A stretch of DNA of 64,000 nt, taken from assembly GCF_026651875.1 (NCBI RefSeq), contig NZ_CP104067.1, forward strand, positions 3,162,001-3,226,000, read 5' to 3'. How positions within the stretch are numbered: the first letter of the stretch is position 1; the number at the start of each line of letters is the position of its first letter. This document shows, piece after piece, positions 11,642 through 49,552 of the stretch. This DNA comes from Alicyclobacillus fastidiosus. GTDB lineage: Bacteria; Bacillota; Bacilli; Alicyclobacillales; Alicyclobacillaceae. A program made the translations under genes and the position numbers. Below the pieces are notes generated by a model. The model ran no database searches. It saw nothing but the letters and a program-made list of their open reading frames with translations, and had not been told where the DNA came from.

Positions 11642-11766
11642 TTGTGTTGAGGCTCTCGTATTGAGTCATCTGCTCCTGTTTTTACATCGCGATCTGCTAT
11701 TGTCTGAGTGTATCTCCAGCCGACCGATAACCTCGACAATCAGTACGCTCATCTGAACAGCCCATC

Positions 11767-14872: not shown

Positions 14873-16714
14873 TTAATCGTTTGTCTCTCCATCAAATGAT
14901 TTGTAGAATTCAACTAAATGATTATTGGACAAAACATTCTCAGCCTTATACAGATGTATCAAGAAAGAGGTATCACGTCGGTTCGTTCGATACCGGGCCA
15001 TCCCGATTGTACCGTTCCGAAATGGCACGGCGTCACTAAGCGTAAAACCAGTTGCAGCCGAGTCTAAGCACAAGATGCTGACTCGCCCATCTTCAGTTGA
15101 TACATCCAGTCGTTTTCCACTTAGGTTTACATCCGTATGACGACAACCGTCCCAGAGTAACACAGGAATTTCCTCAATCAATGCATCAATTTGTCCGACC
15201 ACTCTATCGGAGACCAAGACGACTTCAGATGTAACAGTGAGCCGTCTCTGAACGCAGGTCACACCATTTAATGGTCCCCGATACTTCAGTTCTACGGATA
15301 CTCTTTTATCCGTCTTCTCATGTACTCCCAATGCCAATTCAACATCGTTGGCCGGTGACCAATCGGCCATTCGAGTCACGTCCGACCTCAGCGAAGACGT
15401 TTCCCACGCAGGCGCGTAAGCTATCGCCTTTCCCGCTTGATGTGAGGCACCATCGGAAGGACCAATCAAGGAACAAACGCCCTTACGTTGAATTCGCAGT
15501 ATGCCCGTCGGATTGTAGATAGGTTCTCCCCTGGTCTGGATTTGAACGTAGTTCCCACCTACGTTAATTACCAGCTTATGAAAGAAAGGTTCTATCCAAA
15601 TGTAAAAGCCTCCGGTTTCTGCAGGGCAAGAATCCTCAGGTATGGAATCTACACCAAAACGAAAAGTGAGTGCCAAGAGATAAGCCGTAAGCAAATTGTA
15701 CTGAGAATGGAACGTGTACGACTCAAAACCCGTACGCAACATTGGCGAAGCGTGGTTCTTTACAACATTTAATTCACCAGAAGGTCGAGTCCAACGTCGA
15801 ATAGAAGCAACAGACAGGTGTGCCGCACGTTTAAATGCGCCCGCAATTCGTAAGTCCCCTTGTTTCGCATGGAATTTCGCCGCAAGTTCAAACTGAAACG
15901 CCTGTTGCGCCTCATTCCATTGATGCTGAGCACTCCGCCCGCCAGTTGGCATTTCCCCCAGTGGACTTTGCAAAAACAAGGATGTAAATGTCCCCCTTCG
16001 GAAACATTCCTGAAGTTGTTTCCTAAACCTCCCATTGTAACCATGAAGAAGAATCAATAGTAAATAATTGCGAGAAAACATATCATATGCGAGAGGGCCA
16101 TTCGGATCGATATACATACCATACTCTGTGATTAGCTCCATATGAGGGGCCAATGCTTCATCAAAGTCGTTTACCTCTAGACTTGGACCGAGTCCCGCAA
16201 TACTACGAAGCCATTCCCCAGCAAGCTGCACGATGCTCCAGTTGTTGAATGACGGTTTATAGACGCTTTGCCAATCAATCCCATCAAATGCCCTCTTCCA
16301 TATTTCCACCTGATTTAATGAAACTTGAGGTTTCAACTCATGAAAAGCAAATACCAACATTGTAGTATAAAAGTTACTATGTCCATCAGCAGCTCTTTGG
16401 TGAATCAAGTCATCCAACGAAGCATCTAGTGCCCTGATAGCGTGATCTAAAAACGATGAGTCTTTCAGTTCATTCGCCAACAATGCAGCTACAGCGGCGT
16501 AAGCTGGAGTAGAATATTGCTTTTCTTGATGTACGTATGGATCGATAATCCGACCATGCTCAGACTGATGACCCGTAAAATAATGAACAATATTATAAAT
16601 CAACTCGAGACATGTTTTAGAGTTCACGTCTAAATCTTCAAGATCAGAACTAGAGTTAGGGCCAGTAAAGAACTCACGTACCGTCGTATCTAACGGATAG
16701 TTGGAATTTAACAA
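14873..16714 (-). CDS. Heparinase II/III-like polysaccharide-degrading protein
   Basis: A protein of about 613 residues with an alpha/alpha-barrel-like N-terminal half and a beta-sandwich-like C-terminal half. Examples are FNNWSIVQLAGEWLRSIAG, then MYIDPNGPLAYDMFSRNYLL, and later WKRAFDGI with surrounding helices. This resembles uncharacterised heparinase/alginate-lyase-like proteins that cleave or process uronate-containing polymers. The frame is open further upstream to 16975, but that part overlaps the preceding gene; TTG at 16714 lies 11 bp after GAGGTG and 43 bp after the oligogalacturonide-lyase gene. The start is therefore uncertain. No secretion signal is evident, so action on imported oligosaccharides is likely. 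Confidence 0.6.
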   Translation of the reverse strand: MLNSNYPLDTTVREFFTGPNSSSDLEDLDVNSKTCLELIYNIVHYFTGHQSEHGRIIDPYVHQEKQYSTPAYAAVAALLANELKDSSFLDHAIRALDASLDDLIHQRAADGHSNFYTTMLVFAFHELKPQVSLNQVEIWKRAFDGIDWQSVYKPSFNNWSIVQLAGEWLRSIAGLGPSLEVNDFDEALAPHMELITEYGMYIDPNGPLAYDMFSRNYLLLILLHGYNGRFRKQLQECFRRGTFTSLFLQSPLGEMPTGGRSAQHQWNEAQQAFQFELAAKFHAKQGDLRIAGAFKRAAHLSVASIRRWTRPSGELNVVKNHASPMLRTGFESYTFHSQYNLLTAYLLALTFRFGVDSIPEDSCPAETGGFYIWIEPFFHKLVINVGGNYVQIQTRGEPIYNPTGILRIQRKGVCSLIGPSDGASHQAGKAIAYAPAWETSSLRSDVTRMADWSPANDVELALGVHEKTDKRVSVELKYRGPLNGVTCVQRRLTVTSEVVLVSDRVVGQIDALIEEIPVLLWDGCRHTDVNLSGKRLDVSTEDGRVSILCLDSAATGFTLSDAVPFRNGTIGMARYRTNRRDTSFLIHLYKAENVLSNNHLVEFYKSFDGETND

Positions 16715-27731: not shown

Positions 27732-28554
27732 TCCTCTATTAAATCTCTACCGGCATGCTCCGCAGATTTTCAAGGCTGGTCTTCAGGCTGTCAAATGGAT
27801 TCCCCTGGCATTGATCCTGTTCCACTGCGCCCCAATCCACACCGATGTCGCTACAGGCCCGGATCATCTCTGACCAGTTCATATTGCCTTCGCCGACCTC
27901 GGCGAACATTGAGCTCCTATCTGGGCTAACCGCCATGTCCTTCAAGTGAACGACCTTCATACGGCCAGCGACTTTGCGGATCCACTGCACCGGATCAGCA
28001 CCGCCAGCCTGTACCCAATAGACATCGAGTTCAAAGTCGACGGCAGCGGGATCGAACGTTTGCAGTAAGATGTCCATGCCAGTCACGCCGTCAAACTTGG
28101 CATATTCAAAGTTATGGTTGTGATAGATGAGCTTGAGGCCCTCCTTCGCCAGAACCCGCCCGTATTCTGACGCTTCACGGGCAAACGCTTCGTAGCCTTC
28201 TCGACTGCTCCGATAGGAATCCGGCATGGATCCGATGCCGACGTACTTGCAATTCCACAGTTGATGAACTTCAATCACAGACTTGATGTCACTCTGCAGT
28301 TGAGGATACGGAACGTGTGTGGCACAGATGGTGAGGCCGATGTCGTCGGTCATCTGCTTCAGTTCGGCCGCATCAATCGGGCCAAGACCGGATACCTGAA
28401 CCGCGTTGTACCCAATTTCCTTCACGCGCTGTAGGGACGCCAAAATATCTGAAGGGGTTTTCAGGAAATCTCGTATGGTATAAAGTTGCGCTGCAATTTT
28501 CACGACAATCACCTCGTTCGATAATTGTAGCCATTCATAGAGGGCTACCAAAAC
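27732..28554. repeat. 0.8-kb duplication, copy 2 (matches 10827-11641)
   Basis: This is the intact copy of the duplicated segment. Its right edge (28554) abuts a truncated AraC remnant, showing that the duplication or an associated deletion removed the rest of that regulator gene. Confidence 0.85.
27739..28503 (-). CDS. Sugar-phosphate isomerase/epimerase (intact copy of duplicated gene)
   Basis: A 254-residue TIM-barrel isomerase. It starts with GTG at 28503 behind GAGGTG and reads KIAAQLYTIRDFLK. Metal and substrate residues fit IYHNHNFEY, DFELDVYWV and KVVHLKDMAV. It is nearly identical to the broken copy at 10832-11591. The gene is the functional member of the pair. Confidence 0.88.
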   Translation of the reverse strand: MKIAAQLYTIRDFLKTPSDILASLQRVKEIGYNAVQVSGLGPIDAAELKQMTDDIGLTICATHVPYPQLQSDIKSVIEVHQLWNCKYVGIGSMPDSYRSSREGYEAFAREASEYGRVLAKEGLKLIYHNHNFEYAKFDGVTGMDILLQTFDPAAVDFELDVYWVQAGGADPVQWIRKVAGRMKVVHLKDMAVSPDRSSMFAEVGEGNMNWSEMIRACSDIGVDWGAVEQDQCQGNPFDSLKTSLENLRSMPVEI

Positions 28555-36054: not shown

Positions 36055-37008
36055 CTACGCAAAACTTTCTGTCGGTACAGGCAGCGTGCTAGTGATCCGC
36101 TCGATGATACCCATCGCTCCATGTCCGTCGTGACGTGATCGGTGAGACAAGGTCATCCGATGCGCCAAAACCGGTACGGCCATTGCCTTGACGTCGTCAG
36201 GCGTCACGTATGAACGCTTGCGCAGAGCGGCTCGTACCTGCGTCGCCCGCAGGAGAGCTTGACTGCCGCGAGGACTCACCCCGAGATGGACATCGCGTTG
36301 GTTGCGCGTCGCTTCAACGACATCAAGCAAATAGCGCAGGACGTCATCGGACACATCCACTTGGGTGACTGCCTGTTGGGCCGCGACGATATCTGCTTTA
36401 CTGACGACCGGTGTGAGTGAGTTCAGTGGATCCGCCGACTGGAAGCGACGCAAGATCGCCATGCCTTCGGCTGTTGACGGATAACCGATGTGCAACTGGA
36501 ACAAAAACCTATCTAACTGCGCCTCCGGCAGTGGAAATGTCCCATGACTCTCCACTGGATTTTGTGTCGCTACGACGAGAAAGGGTCTGTCAAGGACATG
36601 CGTTTCACCATCAATGGTCACCTGGCGCTCTTCCATGCTCTCCAGTAGACTCGACTGGGTGCGCGGCGTCGCCCGATTAATTTCATCTGCCAGCAAAATA
36701 TTCGTGAAGATAGGGCCGGGTCGGAACTGAAATCGGGAAGATTGTTGGTTGAAGAAGTCGATACCGGTCAAATCGCTGGGCAATAAATCTGGGGTAAACT
36801 GAACACGTTTGGTTGTACATGCAATGGATTTGGCAAGCGCTTTCGCCATCATCGTCTTGCCGGTGCCCGGCACGTCTTCGAGCAGTACATGCCCGCGTGC
36901 AAGGATGGCGATGAACAGCATCTCAATCATGTCATCCTTACCGACAATGACCTGGCCCACGCATTGCTTGACCCGATTCGCCATGTCTTGAATCTCAGAG
37001 ATTTCCAT
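36055..37008 (-). CDS. MoxR-family AAA+ ATPase
   Basis: A 317-residue AAA+ ATPase. Walker A is LLEDVPGTGKTMMAKALA near residue 37-46, Walker [17 protein letters not shown], sensor 1 [20 protein letters not shown], and the C-terminal lid includes LGVSPRGSQALL. MoxR proteins are chaperone-like ATPases that work with DUF58 partners. ATG at 37008 was chosen; a TTG at 37035 behind AAGG is also possible. A decayed duplicate lies at 8913-9717. Confidence 0.9.
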   Translation of the reverse strand: MEISEIQDMANRVKQCVGQVIVGKDDMIEMLFIAILARGHVLLEDVPGTGKTMMAKALAKSIACTTKRVQFTPDLLPSDLTGIDFFNQQSSRFQFRPGPIFTNILLADEINRATPRTQSSLLESMEERQVTIDGETHVLDRPFLVVATQNPVESHGTFPLPEAQLDRFLFQLHIGYPSTAEGMAILRRFQSADPLNSLTPVVSKADIVAAQQAVTQVDVSDDVLRYLLDVVEATRNQRDVHLGVSPRGSQALLRATQVRAALRKRSYVTPDDVKAMAVPVLAHRMTLSHRSRHDGHGAMGIIERITSTLPVPTESFA

Positions 37009-37424
37009 CCTGACCCATCCACTCCTGCCGGCCAATCAGATACCTTATTAGAAAATATTTTGATATGTATGATAACACAAACAACTCTAACACTCTCCAA
37101 TTTCCCCAGCATACATGATATTCCAGGAGCTCAGTTTTGACGATCTACATCCTCCATAAATTGCATGGCGTACGAAGGGGATATAGAGATACGCACGAAA
37201 AGACTTCCACGATCATCAAGAGGTCTGGAACCTTATTTCATTCGTGTTCACAATTGAAGATAGGAGCGACGCCCTGATGCAGCGCCGATCCAGCTTCAAC
37301 GCGGCCAAGAGGAGTCGAAAGGCCCTCGAGGTCGACGGATTAACGAGTTGCGAAACCCTGACGATGATTCGCTCAAGGTCAAGCATTCCTTTCGGAAATG
37401 CACGCGTGTAGCAGCATTCACTAG
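37009..37424. other. Intergenic region upstream of the MoxR operon
   Basis: About 415 bp that should contain the MoxR operon promoter on the minus strand. I see no gene and no clear repeat in it. Confidence 0.35.
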
Positions 37425-37741: not shown

Positions 37742-38203
37742 TTATGTCGTCGTCACGGCCCGGGCCAGCGCGACGATAGACCCGGCGCATAAAATACCCA
37801 TGGTATCGATTCCTACATCGTAGAGTCTTCCATCTCTGCCGAACGGCACCTGTAGAATTTCCGTACCAATCGCAAACATAACGGAACAAGCGACTGCCGT
37901 CTTACCTCGCCTCAAACAATTCAAGAACAACAAATCCATGATGGCGAAACCGAAAAAGTGTCCGAGTTTGGTGATCAGCCATTCCGGATTTTTAAGCTGA
38001 AAATCCAGGGTGAAGAACGCGGACCAATCCGGGTGCGGCACAAGTTGAAAGGATAGGGATGACAGATCAAGCAAAGCTCGCATACTCCCAGCACATACGC
38101 AGATGATTAGGCCTATCCCCCAGCACACCACCAGCGTGATTCTCAGAACTGCCCGGCCGTCGCGCCGAAAAGTCCTATCAGCATGTACGAAATGCCTTCC
38201 CAT
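37742..38203 (-). CDS. VanZ-like membrane protein
   Basis: A 153-residue protein with four hydrophobic segments and the VanZ pattern: K-x-GHFFGFAIMDLLFL near residue 80, then E-x-LQ (GTEILQVPFGRDGRLYDV) and a final D-x-x-x-N/M helix. ATG at 38203 follows GAGGTGAGTGAG; a longer start at 38296 overlaps the peptidase gene. VanZ-like proteins occur near surface polysaccharide and envelope genes; the activity is not known. It is the last gene of the repeat-protein module. Confidence 0.75.
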   Translation of the reverse strand: MGRHFVHADRTFRRDGRAVLRITLVVCWGIGLIICVCAGSMRALLDLSSLSFQLVPHPDWSAFFTLDFQLKNPEWLITKLGHFFGFAIMDLLFLNCLRRGKTAVACSVMFAIGTEILQVPFGRDGRLYDVGIDTMGILCAGSIVALARAVTTT

Positions 38204-38258
38204 CTCACTCACCTCTTGATTCAGACTTCTGCACGAAGGTACAGACAAAGGGTTTGGT

Positions 38259-38744
38259 CTAACGAAGTTGGCCCCTCCATCTGCGGATTTTCTCAATGAA
38301 TATGGATTTGCGATTCAGATACCATCGAATCCACATTCCTCCTGAAGGAAACACGACCATCAGCTTGGTCCAGGAACGTCCGATAAACCCATCTGTTCGC
38401 AAAGAGCACCATCGCTTCCGGACGACGACAAGCTTTCCAATAATCTGGGTATCAACAATGGAATCGTCCGGGAATCGATTTGTGTCCCCTTTACAGACAT
38501 ACTCGATGTGACCATGATGTTCACTCGTTTGGAACACTCGGTGACCGAACAATCGACCATGACCCGTCGAAAAAAGTAAGATGTCCCCTCTTTTTATTTG
38601 GCTCGGCCACACAGGATAAAATCGACATACATTCCCTTGCGCTATAAACGGATACATACTCGTCCCACTGGATGGGATTTCTATCCACCCGTGTTGACGG
38701 ATGCGTAGTTTGAGTAATTCGATAGAATCCGCAGTGAATTGCAT
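38259..38744 (-). CDS. S24/S26-family peptidase (signal-peptidase-like)
   Basis: A 161-residue protein with the signal peptidase I catalytic box SSGTSMYPFI (Ser29) and GDILLFSTG followed by GHRVF (His68). His in place of the usual Lys suggests a Ser-His dyad as in ER/SipW-type signal peptidases. There is no clear N-terminal membrane anchor. ATG at 38744 follows GGGGTGCGTAGAGC. Such proteins recur beside PqqD, HPr-kinase-like and nucleotidyltransferase genes, so it may cleave the exported repeat protein; that is inferred. Confidence 0.78.
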   Translation of the reverse strand: MQFTADSIELLKLRIRQHGWIEIPSSGTSMYPFIAQGNVCRFYPVWPSQIKRGDILLFSTGHGRLFGHRVFQTSEHHGHIEYVCKGDTNRFPDDSIVDTQIIGKLVVVRKRWCSLRTDGFIGRSWTKLMVVFPSGGMWIRWYLNRKSIFIEKIRRWRGQLR

Positions 38745-38771
38745 GCTCTACGCACCCCATCCTTCAAACCG

Positions 38772-39566
38772 TCAGGATATCTCACTCCAAAATGAATCGT
38801 TCTTTTGAAAGAACAATTGGTACGTACGAACGTGTCGCACGAGTCTAGTCATCATTTTGAGGACTTTGGCGGTCTCCGCAGGATCGTGTGGCCAAAAAAA
38901 TACCTTATCCATCAGCTGAAGCAGCGCCGCGGAAGGTGAGAGCGGCAGCCTCACGACATTTGGAGATTGATGTAGCAAGTGGATAGCCTCGAGCGGATAT
39001 TGCCCGTCGGTGAACAAGCCTTCTTCACTTCGAAAGGGAAACGAGTTAATAGCGAACGCTCCGCCGTCGCATATCTTGACGATGGTCGCTTCATTCGAAA
39101 GGAGTCGACGAGGCCTGGACAGCAATGCAACAGTAGACTTCCCGACCCCTGAGTAACCGGAAAATAAGAATGCTTTGTCGCCATCGACCACACAAGAAGA
39201 ATGAACGAGGAGTCCGCTTTCCGTCTGGACGAGGAATGCGCTGTAAAGGTTCATGATGGCGTGTTTTAATGCAATTTCGTCATAAATCGAGAGGGTCGCA
39301 GTCGCGTAGGACTGATCTGCGCGAATGAGATAGTCCGAGCGGCGATATTCTATCGCATCCGATGTCCTCGATATGCCCACGTCAAAGTTCTCAAACGGCC
39401 TTCCATATCCCTCTTCCACCGACACGATCAGATCTGCCCGTTCGGCAACCGCTGGGCGCGAAAGTGGAGTGCGAAAGGCCGTCTCAAACCAACTCGCGAT
39501 ACGGTCAGAGCCGGTCAACACCTGTATCGTGTGCTCACCGATTTCAAAGCATAACACCTTGTCCAT
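38772..39566 (-). CDS. HPr kinase/phosphorylase-like protein
   Basis: A 264-residue protein with the HprK-type P-loop FSGYSGVGKST (Walker A 137-145) preceded by GLLVHSSCVV (119-127). The N-terminal half (SVEEGYGRPFENF, EYRRSDYLIR) is the variable domain seen in PqqD-linked HprK-like proteins rather than in true HPr kinase, and the CcpA-pathway neighbours are absent. ATG at 39566 follows GAGGAGTACGGAGT. In paeninodin-type lasso clusters the related kinase phosphorylates a Ser of the precursor. Here the adjacent Ser-rich repeat protein is the natural candidate substrate, which is inference. Confidence 0.82.
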   Translation of the reverse strand: MDKVLCFEIGEHTIQVLTGSDRIASWFETAFRTPLSRPAVAERADLIVSVEEGYGRPFENFDVGISRTSDAIEYRRSDYLIRADQSYATATLSIYDEIALKHAIMNLYSAFLVQTESGLLVHSSCVVDGDKAFLFSGYSGVGKSTVALLSRPRRLLSNEATIVKICDGGAFAINSFPFRSEEGLFTDGQYPLEAIHLLHQSPNVVRLPLSPSAALLQLMDKVFFWPHDPAETAKVLKMMTRLVRHVRTYQLFFQKNDSFWSEIS

Positions 39567-39607
39567 ACTCCGTACTCCTCTTTGACGGCTCACGGATTCA
39601 CCGTCTG

Positions 39608-39823
39608 CTAAAATCTCATCTTTTTGTCAAGACACTTATGTAAAATGGCGATGGAATCGCCTTGCTGGCACGAACACCTGGCTTTGCACAAACTCAGCGC
39701 GATCGCGGGGTCATGCTCAATCATCGACCAATACAAAGTGAGCGCCTTGCAGAATTCCGAAATATCGGTATTTATCTTCTGCAAAGCGCTCATATGCAGG
39801 TTTCGAAGACCCATGTTTCCCAT
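39608..39823 (-). CDS. Hypothetical Cys-containing small protein, 71 residues
   Basis: An open frame between the repeat-protein stop and the HprK-like gene. It reads MGNMGLRNLHMSALQKINTD and later ALSLCKARCSCQQGDS, with five Cys in total. The ribosome site is weak (CCAGG 6 bp before ATG). The frame is open far upstream only because the tandem repeats lack stops. A strong hairpin (39740-39791) lies inside it, so the stretch may instead be untranslated spacer. I do not recognise the family. Confidence 0.3.
   Translation of the reverse strand: MGNMGLRNLHMSALQKINTDISEFCKALTLYWSMIEHDPAIALSLCKARCSCQQGDSIAILHKCLDKKMRF
39740..39791 (-). terminator. Stem-loop downstream of the repeat-protein gene
   Basis: Arms 39740-39754 and 39777-39791 form a 15-bp stem. 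On minus-strand RNA it is fully paired with one G-U (GAGCGCTTTGCAGAA with TTCTGCAAGGCGCTC), and the loop holds a smaller CCGA/TCGG stem. Only a weak T-rich stretch follows, so it may be a partial terminator or a processing/stability element. Confidence 0.5.
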
Positions 39824-39902
39824 TTCAAACCTGGAAATCTGAATCACATGTTCGCTTGAAATGTTCAGCTGACATGCTGTTCGAGCAGCCTTTCTGGTTG
39901 TA

Positions 39903-40715
39903 TTAATTGCTCGTGGAATTGCCGTTGACCAAAGTGCTATTGTCCACTGCCGAGTCGTCATCCGACGAAGTAGCGCCGTCTGTCGACGCACTATTCTCTG
40001 TGGACGTGCCATTATCCGTCGATCCGCCGCTATCCGTCGATCCGCCACTATCCGTCGATACGCCACTATCTGTCGATCCGCCACTATCTGTCGATGTGCC
40101 GCTATCCGTCGATCCACCGCTATCTGTCGATCCGCCACTATCTGTCGATGTGCCGCTATCCGTCGATCCACCGCTATCCGTCGATCCACCGCTATCTGTC
40201 GATACGCCACTATCTGTCGATCCGCCACTATCTGTCGATGTGCCGCTATCCGTCGATCCGCCACTATCTGTCGACCCGCCACTATCTGTCGATCCACCGC
40301 TATCTGTCGATCCACCGCTATCTGTCGATCCACCGCTATCCGTCGATCCGCCGCCACTATCTGTCGACCCACCCCTATCCGTCGATCCGCCACTATCTGT
40401 CGATACGCCACTATCTGTCGATGTGCCACTATCTGTCGATGTGCCACTATCCGTCGATACGCCGCTATCCGTCGATGTGCCATTATCTGCCGATGTGCCA
40501 TTATCGGTCGATGTATCACTATTTGTCGTTCCATTGGCACCCCAAAAAGCACTATCGGACGGCTGCCAACTACCTGTTCCATTCGACTGAGAAGCCCCGG
40601 ATGCGTCTGGATCACTGCCTGTAACCGCCCCAGAGTGGAGACTCGATACTGTTTGTTCAAAAGAGAGCGGCTGTACTGAGAGAACGCTGGGTGATACATA
40701 ATTCGTTGGGTCCAC
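39903..40715 (-). CDS. Ser/Thr/Asp/Gly hexapeptide-repeat protein with lasso-leader-like N-terminus
   Basis: A 270-residue low-complexity protein. Residues 1-65 are non-repetitive and lack a signal peptide or membrane helix; they contain NYVSPSVLSVQPLSFEQT, which fits the lasso-type leader pattern YxxPx(L/V) with a Thr 16 residues after the Tyr. About 30 tandem six-residue units follow (consensus G/T/V-STDSG), then a diverged tail ending NSTLVNGNSTSN. GTG at 40715 behind AGGTGAGG is chosen because the likely promoter at 40747-40776 leaves no leader for the longer TTG start at 40766. It lies between an ABC exporter and an HPr-kinase-like gene, with a PqqD-like gene upstream. It may be a modified exported precursor or a surface/biofilm protein; no close family is recognised. 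Confidence 0.7.
   Translation of the reverse strand: MDPTNYVSPSVLSVQPLSFEQTVSSLHSGAVTGSDPDASGASQSNGTGSWQPSDSAFWGANGTTNSDTSTDNGTSADNGTSTDSGVSTDSGTSTDSGTSTDSGVSTDSGGSTDRGGSTDSGGGSTDSGGSTDSGGSTDSGGSTDSGGSTDSGGSTDSGTSTDSGGSTDSGVSTDSGGSTDSGGSTDSGTSTDSGGSTDSGGSTDSGTSTDSGGSTDSGVSTDSGGSTDSGGSTDNGTSTENSASTDGATSSDDDSAVDNSTLVNGNSTSN
39995..40545. repeat. 18-bp tandem repeat array (coding)
   Basis: About 30 units with plus-strand core TATCTGTCGATCCGCCAC vary mainly at the last bases and in CCG/CTG. The unit is a multiple of three, so all reading frames on both strands stay open. One unit near 40352 carries an extra 3 bp (one extra Gly codon). The array encodes the STDSG repeats on the minus strand. Confidence 0.92.
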
Positions 40716-40746
40716 TACCTCACCTGGTTTCCTACTGAATAAATAA

Positions 40747-40796
40747 ATCTTAACATTCGTTCTCAATATAAGTCAATATTGTTCGATTAAAAGAAT
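40747..40796 (-). promoter_or_regulatory. Candidate promoter and box upstream of the repeat-protein gene
   Basis: On the minus strand TTGACT (40771-40776) and TAAGAT (40747-40752) are 18 bp apart. GTTCGATTAAAAGAAT (40781-40796), a GTTC-N8-GAAT palindrome, lies just upstream of the -35. The geometry differs from the other boxes, where -35 or -10 is inside the palindrome. Confidence 0.4.
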
Positions 40797-40827
40797 CACA
40801 AGTTTCAAGTGTATCACACGGCGTCAT

Positions 40828-42693
40828 TCACCGAGTTGCAAGTGACGTACCATCTTGAAACTGAAGGCGATAGAGACGCGAATACTCCCCTCCCTGCGCA
40901 AGCAATTCATCGTGTTTCCCTTGTTCCACAACCTGGCCCTGCTTGAGAACAATAATCGTATCCGCGTCGCGTGCTGTGGATAAGCGATGTGCGATCACCA
41001 ACGTCGTTCTGCCGTGGACCAGCCGTTCTAAGGCCTCTTTCACAAACAGTTCGGTTTCCGCATCCATCGCCGAGGTCGCTTCGTCAAGTAGGAGAATAGG
41101 AGCATTTCTCAGCATTGCGCGGGCAATCGTTAACCTCTGTCGCTGCCCACCCGAGAGCCTCACACCGAGTTCGCCGATCTCCGTGTCATAACTTTTCGGC
41201 AAAGCCATGATAAAATCGTGTGCGTTGGCATCGGTGGCCGCTGTGATCATCTCCACCTCACTCGCATCCGGTCGACCAAGTAATAGGTTTTCTCGAATCG
41301 TTCCTCCAAACAGGATGGTCTCCTGCGGCACGTAAGCGATGTGGCTGCGGAGTTCGTCAACCGCCATCTGATCGATCGATCTGCTGTCAATCCAGACTTG
41401 ACCCGACACCGGTTTATACAATCCCAACAACAACTTGAACAGCGTGCTTTTTCCGGCGCCACTTTGACCTACAATGGCGATTTTCTGCCCAACTGGAGCA
41501 TGAATCGTGACGTTATTCAGGACGCTTACCACACCGTCGTAACTGAACGTGACACCGCGTATCACAACGCCCTCCTGCAAACGCTTCATCCCTCGATACT
41601 CATGTAGTCGATCCAGTTCGACGGGCTGCTCAAATATGTTCCACAAGCGCTCCGACGCAGCCAGCGAACGTTGAAAACTGCCCAATTGTCCCGAAACCCC
41701 GCGAATCGGTTGTACGACCTGCGAAACGAGCGAGACAAATGCCATTAACGATCCGACTGTGATCGCTCCCTTTGACACGTAGATGGTGCCAAGGCCGACA
41801 CTGAATAGCAGTGCGGCTGCACCTACAGCACTGGATCCAGCTCGCAAAGTCCCCATGTATTGGGCGGATTTTAATTCCAATGAAGATACGTAATCGCTGT
41901 CATCGAAGAAGCGCTTTGCAAAGACGCTTTCCAACGTGAAGGCCCGTACGATCAAATGCCCGGCAAACGCCTCACTGAGAAAGCTATTCACCTTGCCGAG
42001 ATACTGGTAGAGTGAGCTGGTGTTTTTGCGCATGAGCTTGCTAAAGATAGATCCGGTGACGATTGCAACTGGTCCTAGCAGCAAACACAACGCGGCCATG
42101 ACTCGGTTAATCGTAAATATGTAAACCAAAGAGAAGCTCGATATCAGCACTAGGCGAATCAGATTGAGCAGACTCTCCCCAACGGCCCCGCTGATACTGC
42201 CGACATCGTGGGTTAATCGCGATACTAAATCGCCTGAGTGATAGTTCGTGTAAGACTCGGTCGGCAAACGCAAGATGTGATGGAATAGGTCTTTTTTTAG
42301 ATCCCGCTTGACCAAACTAATCGCCTTGGCCCCAAGGAAGGTCGTAAGATAATTCACGCTCCCAGTGAGCGCGACAAAGACCACTCCGGCAGCCAGTATC
42401 CAGCCGAGTGTCGCGGTCTCATGTCTGATGGCAGCCTCCGTACTATTCCGCAGAAACCAGGCAAAGAAAATGCCTGTGAACGCTTCGACGACCATTAAAC
42501 AAAAGAGTGGGAGATAAACTGTCCAATGGCGAAAGACGTACGGAAGCAACCTCAGTATCCGCAAACGCATCGCGTGCAGTTCGGTAGACGAAGGCGGGCA
42601 CTCTGCGTTCACCTTGCTGCCAAAAGACGTCATCAGACCACGAAAATTCGGGCGTACAGTGACACTGCTGTGTTCTCGCGAGGGTCGCCTCAT
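40828..42693 (-). CDS. ABC exporter with fused membrane and ATPase domains
   Basis: A half-transporter of about 620 residues. Six membrane helices occupy roughly residues 50-330 and the ATPase follows: Walker A IVGQSGAGKSTLFK, Q-loop YVPQETILFGGTIREN, signature LSGGQRQRLTIARAML, Walker B ILLLDEATSAMD, H-loop IAHRLST. There is no N-terminal C39 peptidase domain. Several starts are possible (42720 TTG overlapping the PqqD stop, 42693 ATG); 42693 is a compromise. The membrane part resembles the second exporter at 46690-48506, so they may form a heterodimer. Position directly before the repeat-protein gene suggests it exports that protein or a lipid-linked or peptide product. Confidence 0.9.
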   Translation of the reverse strand: MRRPSREHSSVTVRPNFRGLMTSFGSKVNAECPPSSTELHAMRLRILRLLPYVFRHWTVYLPLFCLMVVEAFTGIFFAWFLRNSTEAAIRHETATLGWILAAGVVFVALTGSVNYLTTFLGAKAISLVKRDLKKDLFHHILRLPTESYTNYHSGDLVSRLTHDVGSISGAVGESLLNLIRLVLISSFSLVYIFTINRVMAALCLLLGPVAIVTGSIFSKLMRKNTSSLYQYLGKVNSFLSEAFAGHLIVRAFTLESVFAKRFFDDSDYVSSLELKSAQYMGTLRAGSSAVGAAALLFSVGLGTIYVSKGAITVGSLMAFVSLVSQVVQPIRGVSGQLGSFQRSLAASERLWNIFEQPVELDRLHEYRGMKRLQEGVVIRGVTFSYDGVVSVLNNVTIHAPVGQKIAIVGQSGAGKSTLFKLLLGLYKPVSGQVWIDSRSIDQMAVDELRSHIAYVPQETILFGGTIRENLLLGRPDASEVEMITAATDANAHDFIMALPKSYDTEIGELGVRLSGGQRQRLTIARAMLRNAPILLLDEATSAMDAETELFVKEALERLVHGRTTLVIAHRLSTARDADTIIVLKQGQVVEQGKHDELLAQGGEYSRLYRLQFQDGTSLATR

Positions 42694-42716
42694 CGTTTGA
42701 TCGTCTCGATTCCCAA

Positions 42717-43004
42717 TCAACGATTTACGGACTCGACCAGCCCAATTTCCAGCAATTTCTGAAGGAAGTCATAAACTTCGGATTCTGTATTTTCATCCAC
42801 GCTAGAATACGTGTCGCGTAAATGATCTACCATCGCTGGCAAAGACGCTGGATTCTTTAACAGCGACAAGATTTGTCCGCCGGACTTGTTCAATTTGGTA
42901 ATGGTATAATTGCTCGCATTCAAGACGATCCACTGATCATCCGCTTCCACAACTTCTAAATGCGGGGAAATCTTAAACTGTTCAGCCAAGAGAAACGCCT
43001 CCAT
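42717..43004 (-). CDS. PqqD-family protein (RiPP recognition-element type)
   Basis: A 95-residue protein of the PqqD family. It has the short N-terminal beta strands (LEVVEADDQWIVLNASN), then LNKSGGQILSLLKNP and a C-terminal helix pair (VYDFLQKLLEIGLVES). PqqD domains bind leader peptides of ribosomally made peptides and present them to modifying enzymes. It overlaps or abuts the exporter gene. The lasso-like leader of the repeat protein is its possible ligand. Confidence 0.85.
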   Translation of the reverse strand: MEAFLLAEQFKISPHLEVVEADDQWIVLNASNYTITKLNKSGGQILSLLKNPASLPAMVDHLRDTYSSVDENTESEVYDFLQKLLEIGLVESVNR

Positions 43005-43088
43005 TCCGGTTTAAAAAATGTAACGGTGTTAAGTAGGGATCAACAGTTGTTTTGACCATTTTGCGTGGTTGACCAGGCAGTGCCGCCT

Positions 43089-44159
43089 CTACCCGCCTTG
43101 CCTGCGTGCAAACTTGGCTACGAACTTCAGCATCCGCTTCTGGTAAAACCGGACATACACGTTCGAAGCTGTGACCTTGGAGTCATCCCTTAGATGCCAA
43201 AGGGCGACTTCCCTCGGGGGCCGGACGATGCCAATGAGCACACCAACTCTATCTCTCCAGTGGTCAAGTAAGAAGAGTGGCCACTTCGAGAAGATGGCGC
43301 TGGGCGGGATGCAAGACAACCTCATAGAATCCAGCGGTTTCACCTCATGAAGGTGCGGAAACTGCTGATACACGTAAGCTAAAACGGCAGATATCCGCTT
43401 CGCCGTACCGTCGTCGCGTGCCTGTGCAAAAAGTCTGGGATAGTCAATTTCCCGACGACACCGTTGGATCATCTGGACGATGTCGAGCACGTACTTGAAT
43501 GATTCCATTCGGTGATTTGCACCATGAAGACAGATCGCATAAAAGGTGTTCTGCACCGATAGTTCACGAATAAACTGATATTCACGAACAGGAACTGAAT
43601 TCTTCCATAAGTCCTTTACCTTCATGCGCGAATGGTGTTCTTTGACCAACCCCCAGTGAACTTCCACGTTCAACGGCGATTCTCGATGATTGGTCTCCTT
43701 CCAAAGAACGCAGTGGAAGTGAATTGGATTGTATGGTGCTGGTCCGTGATATCCAAGCGACCGTAGACATTCGACGGTTCGCTTCACATCGTCCTTCGCG
43801 ACGAGAATATCGACGTCCGATGTACCTCTCGCCGAAAAGTGCCCAAAGTATCGTTCGGCGAATAAGATGCCCTTTAAGGGGATGACTTCAATGTTCGCGC
43901 GTTCAAGGATAGCGAAGACGGCTTCCTGTTGATGTTTGATGTAGAGATTTTGGAACATTGTTTTCTCGTGTTTCTGCACCAAATCATTCCGGAAAAACGC
44001 TGGCACGCTACCCAGCGTGTCGGTTTCGCTGAGCAATTGGTAGACTTGTGCTGCAACGGAGAAACGCTCTATTTCCTCCATGCATCGTTCGAAGAGTTCG
44101 GAGTCCATGGCCGGAGGAGTCCGCTCGTGATACAAACTCTTGATCAAATTGGCAATCAT
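43089..44159 (-). CDS. Nucleotidyltransferase-family protein (PF14907 type)
   Basis: A 356-residue protein with the marks of this uncharacterised nucleotidyltransferase family: IPLKGILFAERYFGHFSARG followed by TSDVDILV (the DxD metal site) near residues 95-120, and NVEVHWGLVKEHH near residue 165. ATG at 44159 follows GGAGGAGTCCGC. Members recur in RiPP and PqqD/HprK-like clusters and might adenylylate a protein or small molecule; the target is unknown. Confidence 0.85.
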   Translation of the reverse strand: MIANLIKSLYHERTPPAMDSELFERCMEEIERFSVAAQVYQLLSETDTLGSVPAFFRNDLVQKHEKTMFQNLYIKHQQEAVFAILERANIEVIPLKGILFAERYFGHFSARGTSDVDILVAKDDVKRTVECLRSLGYHGPAPYNPIHFHCVLWKETNHRESPLNVEVHWGLVKEHHSRMKVKDLWKNSVPVREYQFIRELSVQNTFYAICLHGANHRMESFKYVLDIVQMIQRCRREIDYPRLFAQARDDGTAKRISAVLAYVYQQFPHLHEVKPLDSMRLSCIPPSAIFSKWPLFLLDHWRDRVGVLIGIVRPPREVALWHLRDDSKVTASNVYVRFYQKRMLKFVAKFARRQGG

Positions 44160-44252: not shown

Positions 44253-45632
44253 CTAACCCACTAGAATACTTAGGTGATGGAGGATGTGCTCCCAGTCAAC
44301 GTATCGGCGCGCAATGTCTTCTTCCGAGAGCTCAGAACCGAACTGCACCTCGATAAAGACCAGTTTTTCCGCTCCCACACTGCGAATCGCGTGCCACTGT
44401 TCAGGGTGGATGTGGATGACGTCACCCGATTCGACTTGAATCACTCTCGAATCCAGCACGACTTCCCCACGCCCTTGCACGACAGTCCAAACCTCGCTTC
44501 GCTTGGAGTGCTTTTGGTAGCTGATATTCTTCCCAGCGTGAAGTTCGACGTGCTTACTGAGCACTTCTGTGCCGTCTGATAACTTTTGATAGTCCAGCAC
44601 TCGGTAGGTGCCCCAGCGACGTTCCTCGAACATAGGACGCGTCGCGTAATCGTCGATGACGTTTTTGATCTCGGAAGCGTGCTCTTTGTCGGCTGCCAAA
44701 ATCCCATCCGGTGTGGCCACGATGACGGCGTCTTTCAACCCCATGGTGACAACCGGTATGCCAAACTCGTTGATGACGTGGGTGTTATCGCAGTCGACCG
44801 ACGTCCCCAGCCCGACAAACTCCTCGCGAATCTTTTCCGACAAAGTCCCCCAGGTCCCCATGTCCGACCATTTTCCAGCAAAGGTGGCGACCGCCACATT
44901 CGACGTTTGTTCAACCACCTCATAATCGAAACTGCGCTTTGGCAACAGCGGATAAAGCGTGACCAATTCTTGATAACTCTCGGGATACCCCAATTCAGCC
45001 AGAGCCCGTTTGAGAAATCCGATACGGAAGCAAAACACGCCGCAATTCCACAAAGCTCCATTCTCAATGAGGGACTCTGCTACCTCTTTGGTGGGCTTCT
45101 CCGTAAACGAGTGCACTCTATACATGGAACCTTGAGGTGTGTACGCTTCGCCGATTCGAATGTATCCAAACTTGGAAACGGGCGCAGATGGCGTTACGCC
45201 CATCAACAATAAATCAGTCCCGGACTCGTCAAGTCGCACATCCAACTGCTGGATGAAGCGAAAGTATTGCTCGTCGACGTCGTGATCGACCGGGAGTACC
45301 GCGACGACCTCCTCATCTGTGCAGCCTTCGACATCGGCCAAGTACAGAATGGAGAGCGCGATCGCCGGAAACGTGTCTCTGCGCATCGGCTCCTCGATGA
45401 ACGGAACAGGCCCAATCTGATTTTCAATCGTATCTCGCTGTGCCTTGGATGCACAAAGGTAGGTGCCCACCTGCAGCCCTACGTCGCCCAATTGCCCCCA
45501 TATGCGCTGTAACATGGAAACCCGGTTCCCGTTTCTATCGTGGAGCACCTTTAAAAATTGTTTCGATCTCGCCTCATTGGACATTGGCCACAGCCGTTTC
45601 CCTGATCCACCGGACAATAAGACAACTCTCAC
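44253..45632 (-). CDS. manC: Mannose-1-phosphate guanylyltransferase with C-terminal cupin
   Basis: A 459-residue protein that makes GDP-mannose. The nucleotide-binding motif is LLSGGSGKRLWPMSNE (5-20), with VLPVDHDVDE, FTEKPT and NCGVFCFR in the transferase domain. The last about 110 residues are the cupin domain (SYQKHSKRSEVWTVVQGRGE, IHPEQWHAIRSV) found in ManC/mannose-6-phosphate isomerase type II. GTG at 45632 lies 12 bp after galU. GDP-mannose feeds the Gmd enzyme encoded at 53056 and mannosyltransferases. Confidence 0.93.
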   Translation of the reverse strand: MRVVLLSGGSGKRLWPMSNEARSKQFLKVLHDRNGNRVSMLQRIWGQLGDVGLQVGTYLCASKAQRDTIENQIGPVPFIEEPMRRDTFPAIALSILYLADVEGCTDEEVVAVLPVDHDVDEQYFRFIQQLDVRLDESGTDLLLMGVTPSAPVSKFGYIRIGEAYTPQGSMYRVHSFTEKPTKEVAESLIENGALWNCGVFCFRIGFLKRALAELGYPESYQELVTLYPLLPKRSFDYEVVEQTSNVAVATFAGKWSDMGTWGTLSEKIREEFVGLGTSVDCDNTHVINEFGIPVVTMGLKDAVIVATPDGILAADKEHASEIKNVIDDYATRPMFEERRWGTYRVLDYQKLSDGTEVLSKHVELHAGKNISYQKHSKRSEVWTVVQGRGEVVLDSRVIQVESGDVIHIHPEQWHAIRSVGAEKLVFIEVQFGSELSEEDIARRYVDWEHILHHLSILVG

Positions 45633-45644
45633 CGTCTCGCCCCC

Positions 45645-46532
45645 CTATCCAACTGTTACTTCTTCCTCTAACAGCAGCCTTTGCATGAGGTTCCGAACGT
45701 TAGATTGTAAATCGGGTCGACTTAGTGCCAACTCGAGTGTCGCTTCTATAAATCCAAGTTTTTCGCCCACGTCGTAACGCCGGCCGTCGATTTCATAGGC
45801 CATCATCCCTTGCAGCGAATTCACGTATTCTAGGGCATCGGTGAGTTGAATCTCCCCGCCCGCTCCGATGTGACCACTTTCCAGATATTCAAAGATATTT
45901 GGCGTTAAGACGTATCGCCCGATGATCGCTAACGTAGATGGTGCGAGTACCGGCGACGGCTTTTCGACGAGGCTTTTCACGCGGGAAAGCCGCGGCCCGA
46001 TCGAATCTACACCCACGATTCCATAACGCGATACGTGTTCCACGGGTACACTCTTCACGCCGACGACTGACTTCCCGTACGTTTCGTAAACATCGATCAA
46101 CTGTCGTAATCCCGGCCGCTCTCCCTGGACGATGTCGTCTCCGAGCAGCACCGCAAACGGCTCCTCGCCAATGAACCGCCTCGCACACCAAACCGCATGC
46201 CCCAAACCAAGCGGAACTTTTTGACGAATATAGTGAATATTGGCCATATTGACGATGTCGCCAAGTTCGTTCAACTGCGTTTGCTTCCCTTTGTGAGTCA
46301 ACAACTCTTCCAACTCTACTGAACGATCAAAATGATCCTCGATGGCTCGCTTACCCTTGCCTGTGACAATAATGATATCCTCGATTCCCGATGCGACCGC
46401 TTCCTCGACGATGTACTGAATCGTCGGTTTGTCTACGAGTGGAAGCATTTCCTTTGGCATGGCTTTGGTTGCAGGCAAAAAACGCGTTCCCAGCCCAGCT
46501 GCGGGAATCACGACTTTGCGAATTTTGTTCAT
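45645..46532 (-). CDS. galU: UTP-glucose-1-phosphate uridylyltransferase
   Basis: A 295-residue pyrophosphorylase. The signature VVIPAAGLGTRFLPATKAMP is at residues 7-26, followed by KEMLPLVDKP, with GKGKRAIEDHFD and YDVGEKLGF further on. It makes UDP-glucose for the exopolysaccharide. ATG at 46532 follows AAGGGGGACATTTG and is preferred to the longer frame to 46679, which would run through the promoter. It is the first gene after a promoter overlapping a SinR-like box. Confidence 0.95.
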   Translation of the reverse strand: MNKIRKVVIPAAGLGTRFLPATKAMPKEMLPLVDKPTIQYIVEEAVASGIEDIIIVTGKGKRAIEDHFDRSVELEELLTHKGKQTQLNELGDIVNMANIHYIRQKVPLGLGHAVWCARRFIGEEPFAVLLGDDIVQGERPGLRQLIDVYETYGKSVVGVKSVPVEHVSRYGIVGVDSIGPRLSRVKSLVEKPSPVLAPSTLAIIGRYVLTPNIFEYLESGHIGAGGEIQLTDALEYVNSLQGMMAYEIDGRRYDVGEKLGFIEATLELALSRPDLQSNVRNLMQRLLLEEEVTVG

Positions 46533-46548
46533 CAAATGTCCCCCTTTA

Positions 46549-46564
46549 GTTCTTAATAACGAAC
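46549..46564. promoter_or_regulatory. SinR-like box in the galU leader
   Basis: GTTCTTAATAACGAAC is a perfect GTTC-N8-GAAC site just before the galU ribosome site. It lies 83 bp from the next box at 46647. Confidence 0.5.
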
Positions 46565-46646
46565 AACGAACTAGACATGTATCCTCTCCATGAAAGCTGA
46601 CCGCTTGTCCAGTTTTCACCGACTCAGCACCACGCCGTCCTATGTT

Positions 46647-46679
46647 GTTCATTATAAAGAACAAGTGGTGCTTGATCAA
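46647..46679 (-). promoter_or_regulatory. galU promoter with -10 inside a SinR-like box
   Basis: On the minus strand TTGATC (46674-46679) and TATAAT (46651-46656) are exactly 17 bp apart. The -10 is embedded in GTTCATTATAAAGAAC (46647-46662). Binding there would block RNA polymerase, so repression is the expected effect. Confidence 0.75.
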
Positions 46680-46689
46680 GACGGAGGAT

Positions 46690-48506
46690 TTAAATAATTT
46701 CCACGTTTGGATCCCGCTCCAGCACAGTCACTGTCTCCTCCCGAAACTGTAGCCGATACAGATGTGAATACAGGCCTTTCTGTTGGATTAGTTCATAGTG
46801 AGTTCCTTGCTCCACCATATGACCGTTGTCCATGACGAAAATCGCATCCGCATTCCGGACCGTCGACAAACGATGGGCGATCACAATCGTCGTTCGATGT
46901 TTCATTAATTTATCTAAAGCATCCTGAATCAACAGCTCCGTTTCTGAGTCCAGCGCGGACGTCGCCTCGTCCAGCAACAGGATGGGGGCGTCCTTCAAAA
47001 TGGCTCTCGCAATCGAGATCCTTTGCCTCTGCCCACCCGAGAGCCGCAACCCGCGCTCACCGATTTCCGTGCCGTACCCGTTCGGCAAAGAAGCAATAAA
47101 GTCATGAATATTGGCATCTTTCGCTGCGCTCACAATGTCGGAATCACTGGCTGACGGGCGCCCATACCTCAAGTTTTCGCGAATCGTGCCGCTAAATAGG
47201 TGTGTCTCCTGCGGTACGTACGAAATGAGCTGTCGCAAGTCGCGAACAGGGAACTGATGAATCGGCGTATCGTCGATGAGGATGCGACCTGACGTAGGTT
47301 CATAGAAGCGCAGAATCAGGTGAAACAGCGTACTCTTCCCCGCCCCGCTCGGTCCGACCAGTGCGACCACGGCGCCCGCCGGAATGGTACATGACAGATT
47401 TGAAATGGCTTTCCTCGACCCGTCGTAACTTAGCGAGATGTTCCGAAAACAGAGGGAATGACCCGCTCGTCGCGGGCGAGCCTCCCCCCCTCACACTCTC
47501 TGGGGACGTCAAATACTTCCCAAATTCGTTCTGCCGCTGCGAGCGACCTCTGCAGTCCGCCCACTTGATGGGCCATACCTGTAAAAGGCGACACCAGGTG
47601 CTGAAGTAAACTCGTAAACGCCAGCAGAGATCCGACCGACATGGTACCTCTTGCAACATCCGCGGCACCTAGACCCAGGCTCAACAAAAAAGCGGTTGCA
47701 CCAACGAATTGCGAACATAAGAAGAACCCCCCTCGCAAGATGGCACCCCTTAGTTCAAGCGAGACGAACGCGTTGTTCACCTTGCGATACTTTTTTGAAA
47801 ATATGTGTTCCAGAACGAAGGATCGAATGACCATATGTCCAACTAGCGATTCATTGATCAAACTGTAGATGATTCCTAACTGTTTCTGCATGGCCTTCCC
47901 GTTCGTCCGCATGTACTTACTGAACAGCAACACGGAGATCAGTGCGACAGGTCCGAAAGAGACACATATGATAGACAATTGGTGATTCAGATGAAACAGG
48001 TAGAGGAAAGATGAGGCAGCCATGACAGGCAGGTATAGGATATTGATGAGGTTCGTCCCGCCTCCACCTGTCGCGGTTCCTACGTCGTTTGTCAACCGCG
48101 ATACCGCATCTCCAGAGTGAAACGAGACCATCGACGAAACCGGCAAGTGCAAGAGCCTGTCAAATAAATCGGCCGTTACGTCTCTCTTCACTTGGTTCAT
48201 GATGGATGTACTCAGGTAGGTATTGCAGAACCCCATCACGCCTGCCGCCCCGAACAGCATCGCGCCAAGCGCGATCATCCTCCAAACCGTCTGCAAATCA
48301 TGCTGCAGCGCCGCTTCTGTGATGTTTTTGAGAAACCCTGCAACAAATAGTGTCATACAAACATTCGCACCCATGATTGCAAAGAGACCGACGTACCCTT
48401 TCCAATACGGGCGAAAATACGGGATGAGAAAGCGGTAGTACCGCTTGACCACACCTAGAGAAAAGCCGTACCCACTTATGCCGAACGCGTTCATCACCCG
48501 GTTCAT
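46690..48506 (-). pseudogene. ABC exporter split by a frameshift at a G7 run
   Basis: The membrane half (start ATG at 48506 behind AAAGGAG, overlapping the preceding gene) reads through GGLQRSLAAAERIWEVFDVP and runs off frame at the run 47484-47490 (G7 on the coding strand). With eight Gs the frame joins SLCFRNISLSYDGSRKAISN and the intact ATPase: VALVGPSGAGKSTLFHLIL, LSGGQRQRISIARAIL, ILLLDEATSALD. The repaired protein of about 606 residues resembles the exporter at 40828. The single-base change in a homopolymer may be a read error, programmed slippage or phase variation. Confidence 0.85.
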
Positions 48507-48508
48507 GA

Positions 48509-49552
48509 TCATAACTCCTTTAAACGTTCCCCTGTCTTTCGCAACCAGGAGGTCGAGGTCTGCGTCCGTCGATTGAAGACGTGATGTTGAAAGTAGAATA
48601 TCGTCCCATCGAGATGCCCCAGCTGCGTAGGGAGGAAGGTCAGCAGGATATCCCTTTCTCCCCGGATACACCCAATGAGCAATCGGAACAGACCCGGCGA
48701 ACCGCGGTGCCCAAGTAGCAGGTTGTAGATGGATCGAACGACCTTCATCGGCCACGATAAATATAGAAGCATCGTGACATCGGCGTTGAATGCTGCATCG
48801 CGAATGGCACTTTTTACGACTTGGCCTCTACCTCCCCGGTCGTAGCGCGGCCCTGGGTAGTGCAACACCTGAATCGCTGGATCGTAAATCAAGGAATACC
48901 CCATTCTCCGAATTCGTAGACAGACGTACACCTCGTTGTGAACCTGTGCGCCATCTCCACGCAAGAATTTGGGGAATTGAACCAAGCATGTGCGAAAGGA
49001 GGCATTCGCGCCTTTCAGAACATCGACCTTTCGAACGCCCGCGCATCCTACATGGTGGTTGCCAATGAGCTTTCCATACCAGGTCAAAACCCCCACCCGC
49101 GAAGCCGCTCGCAGAGAACGAAGGCCGTGAATGACATCCCGTCCTCCAACACCACCCACCGACGGGTCTTTGTAATACGAGACAATTTTCTCGAGCCAAT
49201 TCGGCTCCGGTATCGTGTCGTCATCTGTATAGGCGACAATCTCGCTCGTGACCGCGTATGTGCCCATGCGAAGCGCGGCGACCTGGCCCGGCTCCGCGAC
49301 GAGTGCCAAGCGCTTCTGATAGCCACGCGTCATCAGTTCCCAATCCCGAACAGCTTCGATGGAGTCCGCGTCCGTCGTTCGACAGACCACAATGACTTCC
49401 TTCGGAAGCCAGGTCTGCCGATCAATCGCCTCCAAGCACTTCGTGAGGCTCTGCGGCCTCTGATAGGAGGGAATGACAACCGAGATACTAGCCGACTGAT
49501 CCAAAGTGGCCTTGTCCAATCCAATTCCGTTTGGCTCGCAGGTATCTTGCAT
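48509..49552 (-). CDS. Glycosyltransferase family 2
   Basis: A 347-residue GT-A transferase: SISVVIPSYQRPQSLTKCLE near residue 22, the DxD-type motif VAYTDDDTIPEPNWLEK near 105, and the acceptor region FLRGDGAQVHNEVYVCLRIR. ATG at 49552 follows AAGGAAGAAATTCG and lies downstream of its own box-regulated promoter, ruling out the longer frame to 49699. It adds one sugar in exopolysaccharide assembly. It overlaps the start of the frameshifted exporter by 3 bp. Confidence 0.9.
   Translation of the reverse strand: MQDTCEPNGIGLDKATLDQSASISVVIPSYQRPQSLTKCLEAIDRQTWLPKEVIVVCRTTDADSIEAVRDWELMTRGYQKRLALVAEPGQVAALRMGTYAVTSEIVAYTDDDTIPEPNWLEKIVSYYKDPSVGGVGGRDVIHGLRSLRAASRVGVLTWYGKLIGNHHVGCAGVRKVDVLKGANASFRTCLVQFPKFLRGDGAQVHNEVYVCLRIRRMGYSLIYDPAIQVLHYPGPRYDRGGRGQVVKSAIRDAAFNADVTMLLYLSWPMKVVRSIYNLLLGHRGSPGLFRLLIGCIRGERDILLTFLPTQLGHLDGTIFYFQHHVFNRRTQTSTSWLRKTGERLKEL

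Follow-up and report, generated by a model that had tools for sequence, protein, structure and literature searches.

A putative divergent lpp-type RiPP cluster with a repeat-protein precursor in Alicyclobacillus fastidiosus

What could accessory genes of the kind found in lasso peptide clusters be doing around a protein built of Ser/Asp repeats? The question is raised by a 64,000-nucleotide stretch of Alicyclobacillus fastidiosus (G000:C1:3162001-3226000; genome of 6.04 Mb, four contigs), hereafter the window. On its minus strand a first-pass annotation had read, in order, a nucleotidyltransferase, a PqqD-like protein, an ATP-binding cassette (ABC) exporter, a repeat protein, an HprK-like protein, an S26 peptidase and a VanZ protein, and coordinates and domain scores agree with this order. 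The best explanation, and in our view a likely one, is a divergent lpp-type cluster for a ribosomally synthesized and post-translationally modified peptide (RiPP), in which a repeat polypeptide would be handled through its leader and exported.

Linear Polyphosphorylated Peptides (LPPs) were described in May 2026 by Popov et al. with lppAKBSDN of Paenibacillus alginolyticus DSM 5050 (PMC13381572); what is said of them below follows the main text of that paper. In this system the RiPP recognition element (RRE) binds a YxxP motif, and an S26 peptidase (S29, H68, D93) cuts after T-1, mutation of which lowered cleavage of LppA. The kinase LppK adds several phosphates to a single core residue, S3, and none was seen with S3A, S3T or S3Y. 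Deletion of the nucleotidyltransferase had no effect in the expression host used (PMC13381572).

Gene content of the cluster

The cluster was compared with that of genome G007, the only relative in the window's genus group carrying the set. Selective constraint was measured as the ratio of nonsynonymous to synonymous substitution rates (dN/dS), in single pairwise estimates of window against G007 with our own script, alignment of the repeat region being ambiguous. The genes compared are:

43089..44159, minus strand: LppN-like nucleotidyltransferase (PF14907, NTP_transf_5; 131 bits, cut-off 31.2)
42717..43004, minus strand: LppB-like PqqD-type RRE (PF05402; 39.4 bits, cut-off 23.4)
40828..42720, minus strand: LppD-like (MsbA-like) ABC exporter (PF00664 and PF00005)
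39903..40715, minus strand: LppA-like repeat precursor, 270 residues, GTG start (leader; orthologue in G007)
38772..39593, minus strand: LppK-like HprK-family protein (P-loop GYSGVGKS, fold, dN/dS 0.21, 63 related loci)
38259..38744, minus strand: LppS-like S26 peptidase (TIGR02228; 52.4 bits, cut-off 51.85)

The gene set of LPP clusters, namely HprK-like, discrete RRE, S26/signal peptidase I, MsbA-like and nucleoside triphosphate (NTP) transferase genes, is found together here. These five families and the precursor share one strand with gaps of -38 to 309 bases (VanZ counted), and the exporter gene overlaps pqqD by 4 bases. All six genes gave dN/dS of 0.12-0.24 against G007 (exporter 0.15, nucleotidyltransferase 0.24), and we take it from this that the cluster is being kept. 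The nucleotidyltransferase has an intact TSDVDI motif and is the sole match above the cut-off in its genome. In the peptidase, Ser, His and Asp occupy the positions of LppS S29, H68 and D93, as in all 9 aligned rows, the statement on the triad coming solely from this 9-row alignment.

Searched against the PDB, the window PqqD, the only PqqD match in its own genome, had a sole match at E<=0.01, which was LppB (9x8z_B, E 2.2e-10), and it keeps LppB N33. In the RRE tree the window falls on the LPP side of a 100* split, with 58 rows against 13 on the lasso B1 side.

Co-occurrence in other genomes

An HprK alignment search in named genomes returned 63 loci, titled nearly all as Bacillaceae, Paenibacillaceae or Alicyclobacillaceae. 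Within 5 kb of the HprK match, S26 was present at 61 of them, PqqD at 57, ABC at 56, the NTP5 nucleotidyltransferase at 55 and a leader peptide at 56; the complete set was found at 53/63. No leader peptide was seen at seven loci, and at ten, some of them on short contigs, at least one of the four partner genes was missing. Asparagine-synthetase-like cyclases lay within 5 kb of HprK at ten loci, and B2 at three (14 when the whole stored locus is counted). One of the outcomes that would have refuted the first-pass annotation thus did not occur, since a Y..P.V-type leader is present at 56 of the 63 related loci. The locus of P. alginolyticus DSM 5050 is among them (L087), with a peptide that hits the LppA-leader chain in the PDB (9x8z_A, E 6.6e-12). 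Two loci are titled Pseudomonas sp. ISL-84 (L079) and Chryseobacterium sp. ISL-80 (L110); their LPP genes group with Bacillaceae, and the titles may be wrong.

The absence of a B2 protease, also claimed at first, extends to the whole genome, in which PF13471 had 0 matches; no B2 was found elsewhere that would point to a separate lasso system, and a lasso cluster hidden elsewhere in the genome was rejected as far as B2 is concerned. The claimed absence of a cyclase stood for the window, where neither a lasso cyclase nor B2 had a homologue, the cyclase not having been sought genome-wide.

Precursor and leader

The precursor reads from a GTG at 40715, preceded by AGGTGAG; its leader is joined by a linker to 28 ST[DE][SNG] units, after which comes a conserved tail. 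The length of 270 residues given in the first-pass annotation was right, and its figure of about 30 STDSG units became 28 by this count, 24 of them exact STDSG. There are 76 Ser, 47 Thr and no Cys. No Sec signal was seen by eye, and NCBIfam models gave 0 families for this precursor and for six LPP-leader peptides. Its features are:

40653..40715, minus strand: leader, residues 1-21 (Y6, P9, V11, L12, Q15, F19 and E20 kept; T-1 position is Gln21)
40644..40646, minus strand: codon of Ser24, counterpart of the LPP core S3, at Y+18
40008..40512, minus strand: 18-base tandem array coding STDSGx units (27.9 copies, 85% matches)

An alternative open frame of 363 codons (39608-40699) spans the array. 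The frame starting at 40715 is favoured because its leader has homologues and because changes against the G007 orthologue are in excess at third positions (15, 12 and 35 at codon positions 1, 2 and 3 over 75 codons). This orthologue (L011:7550-8080) has 176 residues and fewer units. The two proteins have in common the leader start NYVSPSVLSVQPLSFE and the linker GSWQPSDSAFWGANGT, and their C-termini are nearly identical (SLVNGNSTSN in the window, TLVNGNSTSN in G007).

Set against the pattern YxxPxVLxHQxIxFETxxS, the window leader YVSPSVLSVQPLSFEQTVS keeps Y, P, V, L, Q, F, E and S and has H->V, I->L and T->Q. A profile of 39 leaders from other genera, Alicyclobacillaceae left out, ranked the window precursor top of 1550 window segments with E 0.0009, the next having 0.035. 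Y+15 is Thr in 59/59 distinct leaders, a figure in which the 39 training leaders were picked by a pattern containing F[EG]T, which forces T-1, and the remaining ones were found by that profile; it is Gln in the window and His in G007. Y+18 is Ser in 49/59 distinct leaders, and Ser in the window and G007 too. The Thr of 'QT', which the first-pass annotation had taken for the family Thr, proved to be shifted from it by one residue, and the G007 orthologue has Lys at this place.

We regard the cluster not as a stripped lasso cluster but as what appears to be a divergent lpp cluster, with its core genes and most of the leader motif. Several observations weigh against this assignment. The same leader profile run over all loci gave the window precursor E 0.023, and profile A3 run over the whole genome gave its leader E 0.63, this profile containing five of the seven strong matches that it recovers genome-wide. 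The leader match being weak in these larger searches, the call rests on leader, position and orthologue together. In the leader, H is missing at -8 and T at -1; in the RRE, D70 is Glu in both window and G007, and HprK has Asn167 in place of the family Asp. The RRE tree is a quick one of 95 columns, poorly resolved, with window and G007 on a long branch. Finally, at 270 residues the window precursor exceeds the 35-200 given for LPPs (PMC13381572), a range of reported size and not a defining step.

The kinase and phosphorylation

The curated model HprK_rel_A scored 32 bits against a cut-off of 200, so the HprK-like protein is not called by it, and HprK profile A1 had no match at E<0.05 among the sequences of solved structures, with ABC transporters ranked best. 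The predicted structure (mean predicted local distance difference test, pLDDT, 91.9) has its best matches in phosphoenolpyruvate carboxykinase (PEPCK) entries, with E down to 6.5e-9; the HPr kinases 1ko7 (E 5.5e-5) and 3tqf (E 1.1e-4) matched as well, at TM-scores that are low (0.25-0.26). The P-loop is intact. One position stands out:

39093..39095, minus strand: codon of Asn167 (motif LLSNEATIV; other HprK rows have Asp)

Asp is nearly invariant at position 167 of HprK alignment A2. Of the P-loop HprK rows, 81/83 have the Asp of LLSDEA (16 of them as lasso-type DD; two of the records duplicate other loci), and the two with Asn are just the window and G007. The kinase-2 Asp has a catalytic role, and its loss would presumably stop catalysis; phosphorylation in the window cluster is doubtful. 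Asp177 and Asp178 of Mycoplasma pneumoniae HPr kinase are conserved pocket residues (PMC11204831), and the Asp at position 167 belongs to this conserved pair.

How these data bear on phosphorylation can be seen from three alternatives. According to the first-pass annotation, the HprK-like kinase would phosphorylate the STDSG repeats many times, and the resulting phosphoprotein polymer would be exported to the exopolysaccharide. Ser and Thr abound in the precursor (76 and 47 of 270 residues), and the kinase is constrained and has its P-loop; against this, LppK places its several phosphates on S3 and leaves S3A, S3T and S3Y without any (PMC13381572), and the kinase-2 Asp is Asn here. The proposal found no support, and we hold it to be very unlikely.

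If the kinase works, the expected site would be Ser24 alone, not the repeats. Ordinary LPP behaviour of this kind, with a kinase active despite Asn167 and the repeats merely forming the core, is possible, though we give it well under even chances: Ser24 is present in both orthologues and the kinase has dN/dS 0.21, to be set against the Asn at a position that is Asp in nearly all rows and against the Gln or His at T-1, whose mutation lowered LppA cleavage (PMC13381572). Since both the kinase Asp and the cut-site Thr are replaced in window and G007, the order of phosphorylating and then cutting has probably been weakened or lost in this lineage, and the losses would be older than the split of the two.

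Finally, the kinase and cleavage site might already be lost in a decaying cluster, with genes persisting by chance. Two signature positions are indeed lost, and a frame change divides a nearby exporter gene (46690-48755), but dN/dS of 0.12-0.24 for six cluster genes and the occurrence of both losses in G007 make decay improbable.

Proposed mechanism

We return to the divergent lpp-type cluster. By analogy with LPPs, the PqqD-type RRE would bind the YxxPxV leader of the 270-residue repeat polypeptide and present it to its partners, the LppS-like S26 peptidase could cut the leader, and the MsbA-like exporter would move the polypeptide out. Once exported, the repeat polypeptide would probably end up in the exopolysaccharide or at the cell surface. 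What the sequence shows is the gene set, the leader, the signature residues of RRE and peptidase, and the constraint; leader binding, cleavage and export we infer from the published LPP system. The earlier description of a cyclase-free, leader-guided relative of the paeninodin accessory set within a polysaccharide region is supported, and the cluster is best taken as a real, constrained, apparently divergent lpp-type RiPP cluster that encodes a repeat-protein precursor and lies in the polysaccharide region of an Alicyclobacillaceae genome.

A YcaO connection in Alicyclobacillaceae

The window HprK was matched in 5/41 genomes of the family, and in each of the five the same region holds a YcaO gene next to an LPP-leader peptide. 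In the window's own genome (G000) the YcaO gene (L052:13277-15421) lies outside the window and is directly preceded by an 80-residue LPP-leader peptide (15468-15710) with Cys/Ser/Thr repeats; this YcaO is of SagD type, with TIGR03604 and TIGR03882 over cut-off. Here and in G007 (L055), YcaO and peptide are found 34-36 kb upstream of pqqD. YcaO is about 8 kb from the LPP genes in G018 (L014), G017 (L013) has two sets, and G019 (L015, A. mengziensis S30H14) has YcaO and peptide too. G017 and G019 have YcaO, a 49-residue LPP precursor, nucleotidyltransferase and HprK in this order along the same strand. Four of the six YcaOs were scanned, and all four pass TIGR03604.

No wider link was seen within the stored flanks. 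Only 2/63 LPP loci, both named Alicyclobacillus records, have YcaO within the stored flank, and none of the other 61 does. Conversely, 62 other YcaO-bearing loci (30 + 32, sets that overlap in genes; many with about 1.4 kb of flank) gave no leader match at E<=0.01, the best being 0.022 without the FET part. In the YcaO tree the six island YcaOs do not form one clade, three changes being needed, and the link may therefore have had several origins, or paralogues may have lost it. No published account of a YcaO-LPP coupling was found in our literature search, and the main text of PMC13381572 does not mention YcaO; the coupling is the part that we did not find in print.

Could the YcaO cyclodehydratase 34 kb upstream act on the repeat protein itself and form azolines on Ser and Thr of the repeats? 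The 5/5 LPP-bearing family genomes with a YcaO and its own LPP-leader peptide in the region, and the position of YcaO directly before the LPP precursor in G017 and G019, would suit this. It is nevertheless unlikely: 34 kb and many genes lie in between, the window precursor has no Cys, and next to YcaO lies a precursor of its own, whose leader ends more canonically (FET). A wider scheme, which we offer only tentatively, is a merger, in Alicyclobacillaceae, of the LPP pathway with one for YcaO-made azolines. LPP-leader peptides with Cys/Ser/Thr-rich or acidic cores would be made beside YcaO, within the LPP operon itself in two genomes, and the window lineage, having lost the kinase catalytic Asp and the cleavage Thr, would have given up its single phosphorylated Ser in favour of a long, exported repeat polymer of Ser/Thr/Asp/Gly, YcaO-modified or unmodified, as a protein component of the exopolysaccharide.

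Two observations were made along these loci. In L014 (A. ferrooxydans TC-34) the LPP module is adjoined by a full, classical paeninodin lasso cluster and by another group of genes, in which a third PqqD is accompanied by ABC, YcaO and a 129-residue GSCSYT repeat peptide. In L057, L058 and L063 a YcaO paralogue is near small hydrophobic Gly/Tyr-rich peptides (MYG.FGGYT.WAVVFLIIFVLFFL in L058 and L063), which resemble sporulation peptides of the YjcZ type.

Neighbouring genes

The cluster is flanked by:

37742..38296, minus strand: VanZ-family membrane protein, an accessory neighbour (PF04892; 32.5 bits, cut-off 30.1)
44253..46679, minus strand: ManC-like and GalU-like sugar-nucleotide genes, context, read from sequence

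A VanZ homologue lies within the stored flank of 16/63 LPP loci; the main text of PMC13381572 has no mention of VanZ. ManC-like and GalU-like homologues adjoin the LPP genes in L013 and L014, and GalU alone does so in L015. The second MsbA-like exporter at 46690-48755 is in two open reading frames (ORFs) through its frame change, real or a sequencing error, and its G007 counterpart is a single ORF of 607 residues. Elsewhere the window holds near-duplicate stretches with a MoxR-like ATPase fragment (9256-9717 and 36055-37035) and a sugar-isomerase-like ORF twice (11019-11669 and 27739-28551).

Comparison with known systems

The window cluster amounts to a natural experiment: RRE, peptidase, exporter and nucleotidyltransferase are constrained, the leader Thr and kinase Asp are lost, and the core is a repeat polymer. 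It can separate the RRE-exporter function from the phosphorylation function. The YcaO linkage further suggests that two RiPP chemistries draw on a single type of leader, a point relevant to the fusion of RiPP pathways.

Four known systems can be set beside it. With the HPr-rel-A system (TIGR04352, TIGR04353) the window has a PqqD-like and HprK-like pair in common; this identity was rejected, both models being far under cut-off (32 vs 200 and 22.1 vs 35 bits). Linear azol(in)e RiPPs made with SagD-type YcaO resemble the window genome in the linked YcaO region and the Ser/Thr-rich repeats, and differ in that there is no YcaO inside the window and no Cys in the window precursor. Paeninodin-type lasso clusters have the families of RRE, HprK-like kinase, NTP transferase and exporter in common with the window, which has no B2, cyclase or PadeA, YxxP in place of WxxP and RRE N33 in place of Gly; its RRE and kinase fall in other clades than theirs. 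In pseudomycoidin, a phosphorylated lasso peptide, the nucleotidyltransferase puts hexoses on the phosphate (PMC8498205).

The closest likeness is to LPPs as set out in the main text of PMC13381572: HprK-like kinase, discrete RRE, SipW-like S26 peptidase, MsbA-like exporter and NTP transferase, a Y..P.VL....F E leader, neither cyclase nor B2, and adjoining polysaccharide genes. Gene order is N-B-D-A-K-S in the window against A-K-B-S-D-N, RRE D70 is Glu, and the window genome has a YcaO with a second LPP-leader peptide 34 kb away. The LPP family is already published, and the window cluster is set apart from it by a repeat precursor of 270 residues, by Gln (His in G007) at T-1 of the leader and by Asn for the kinase Asp.

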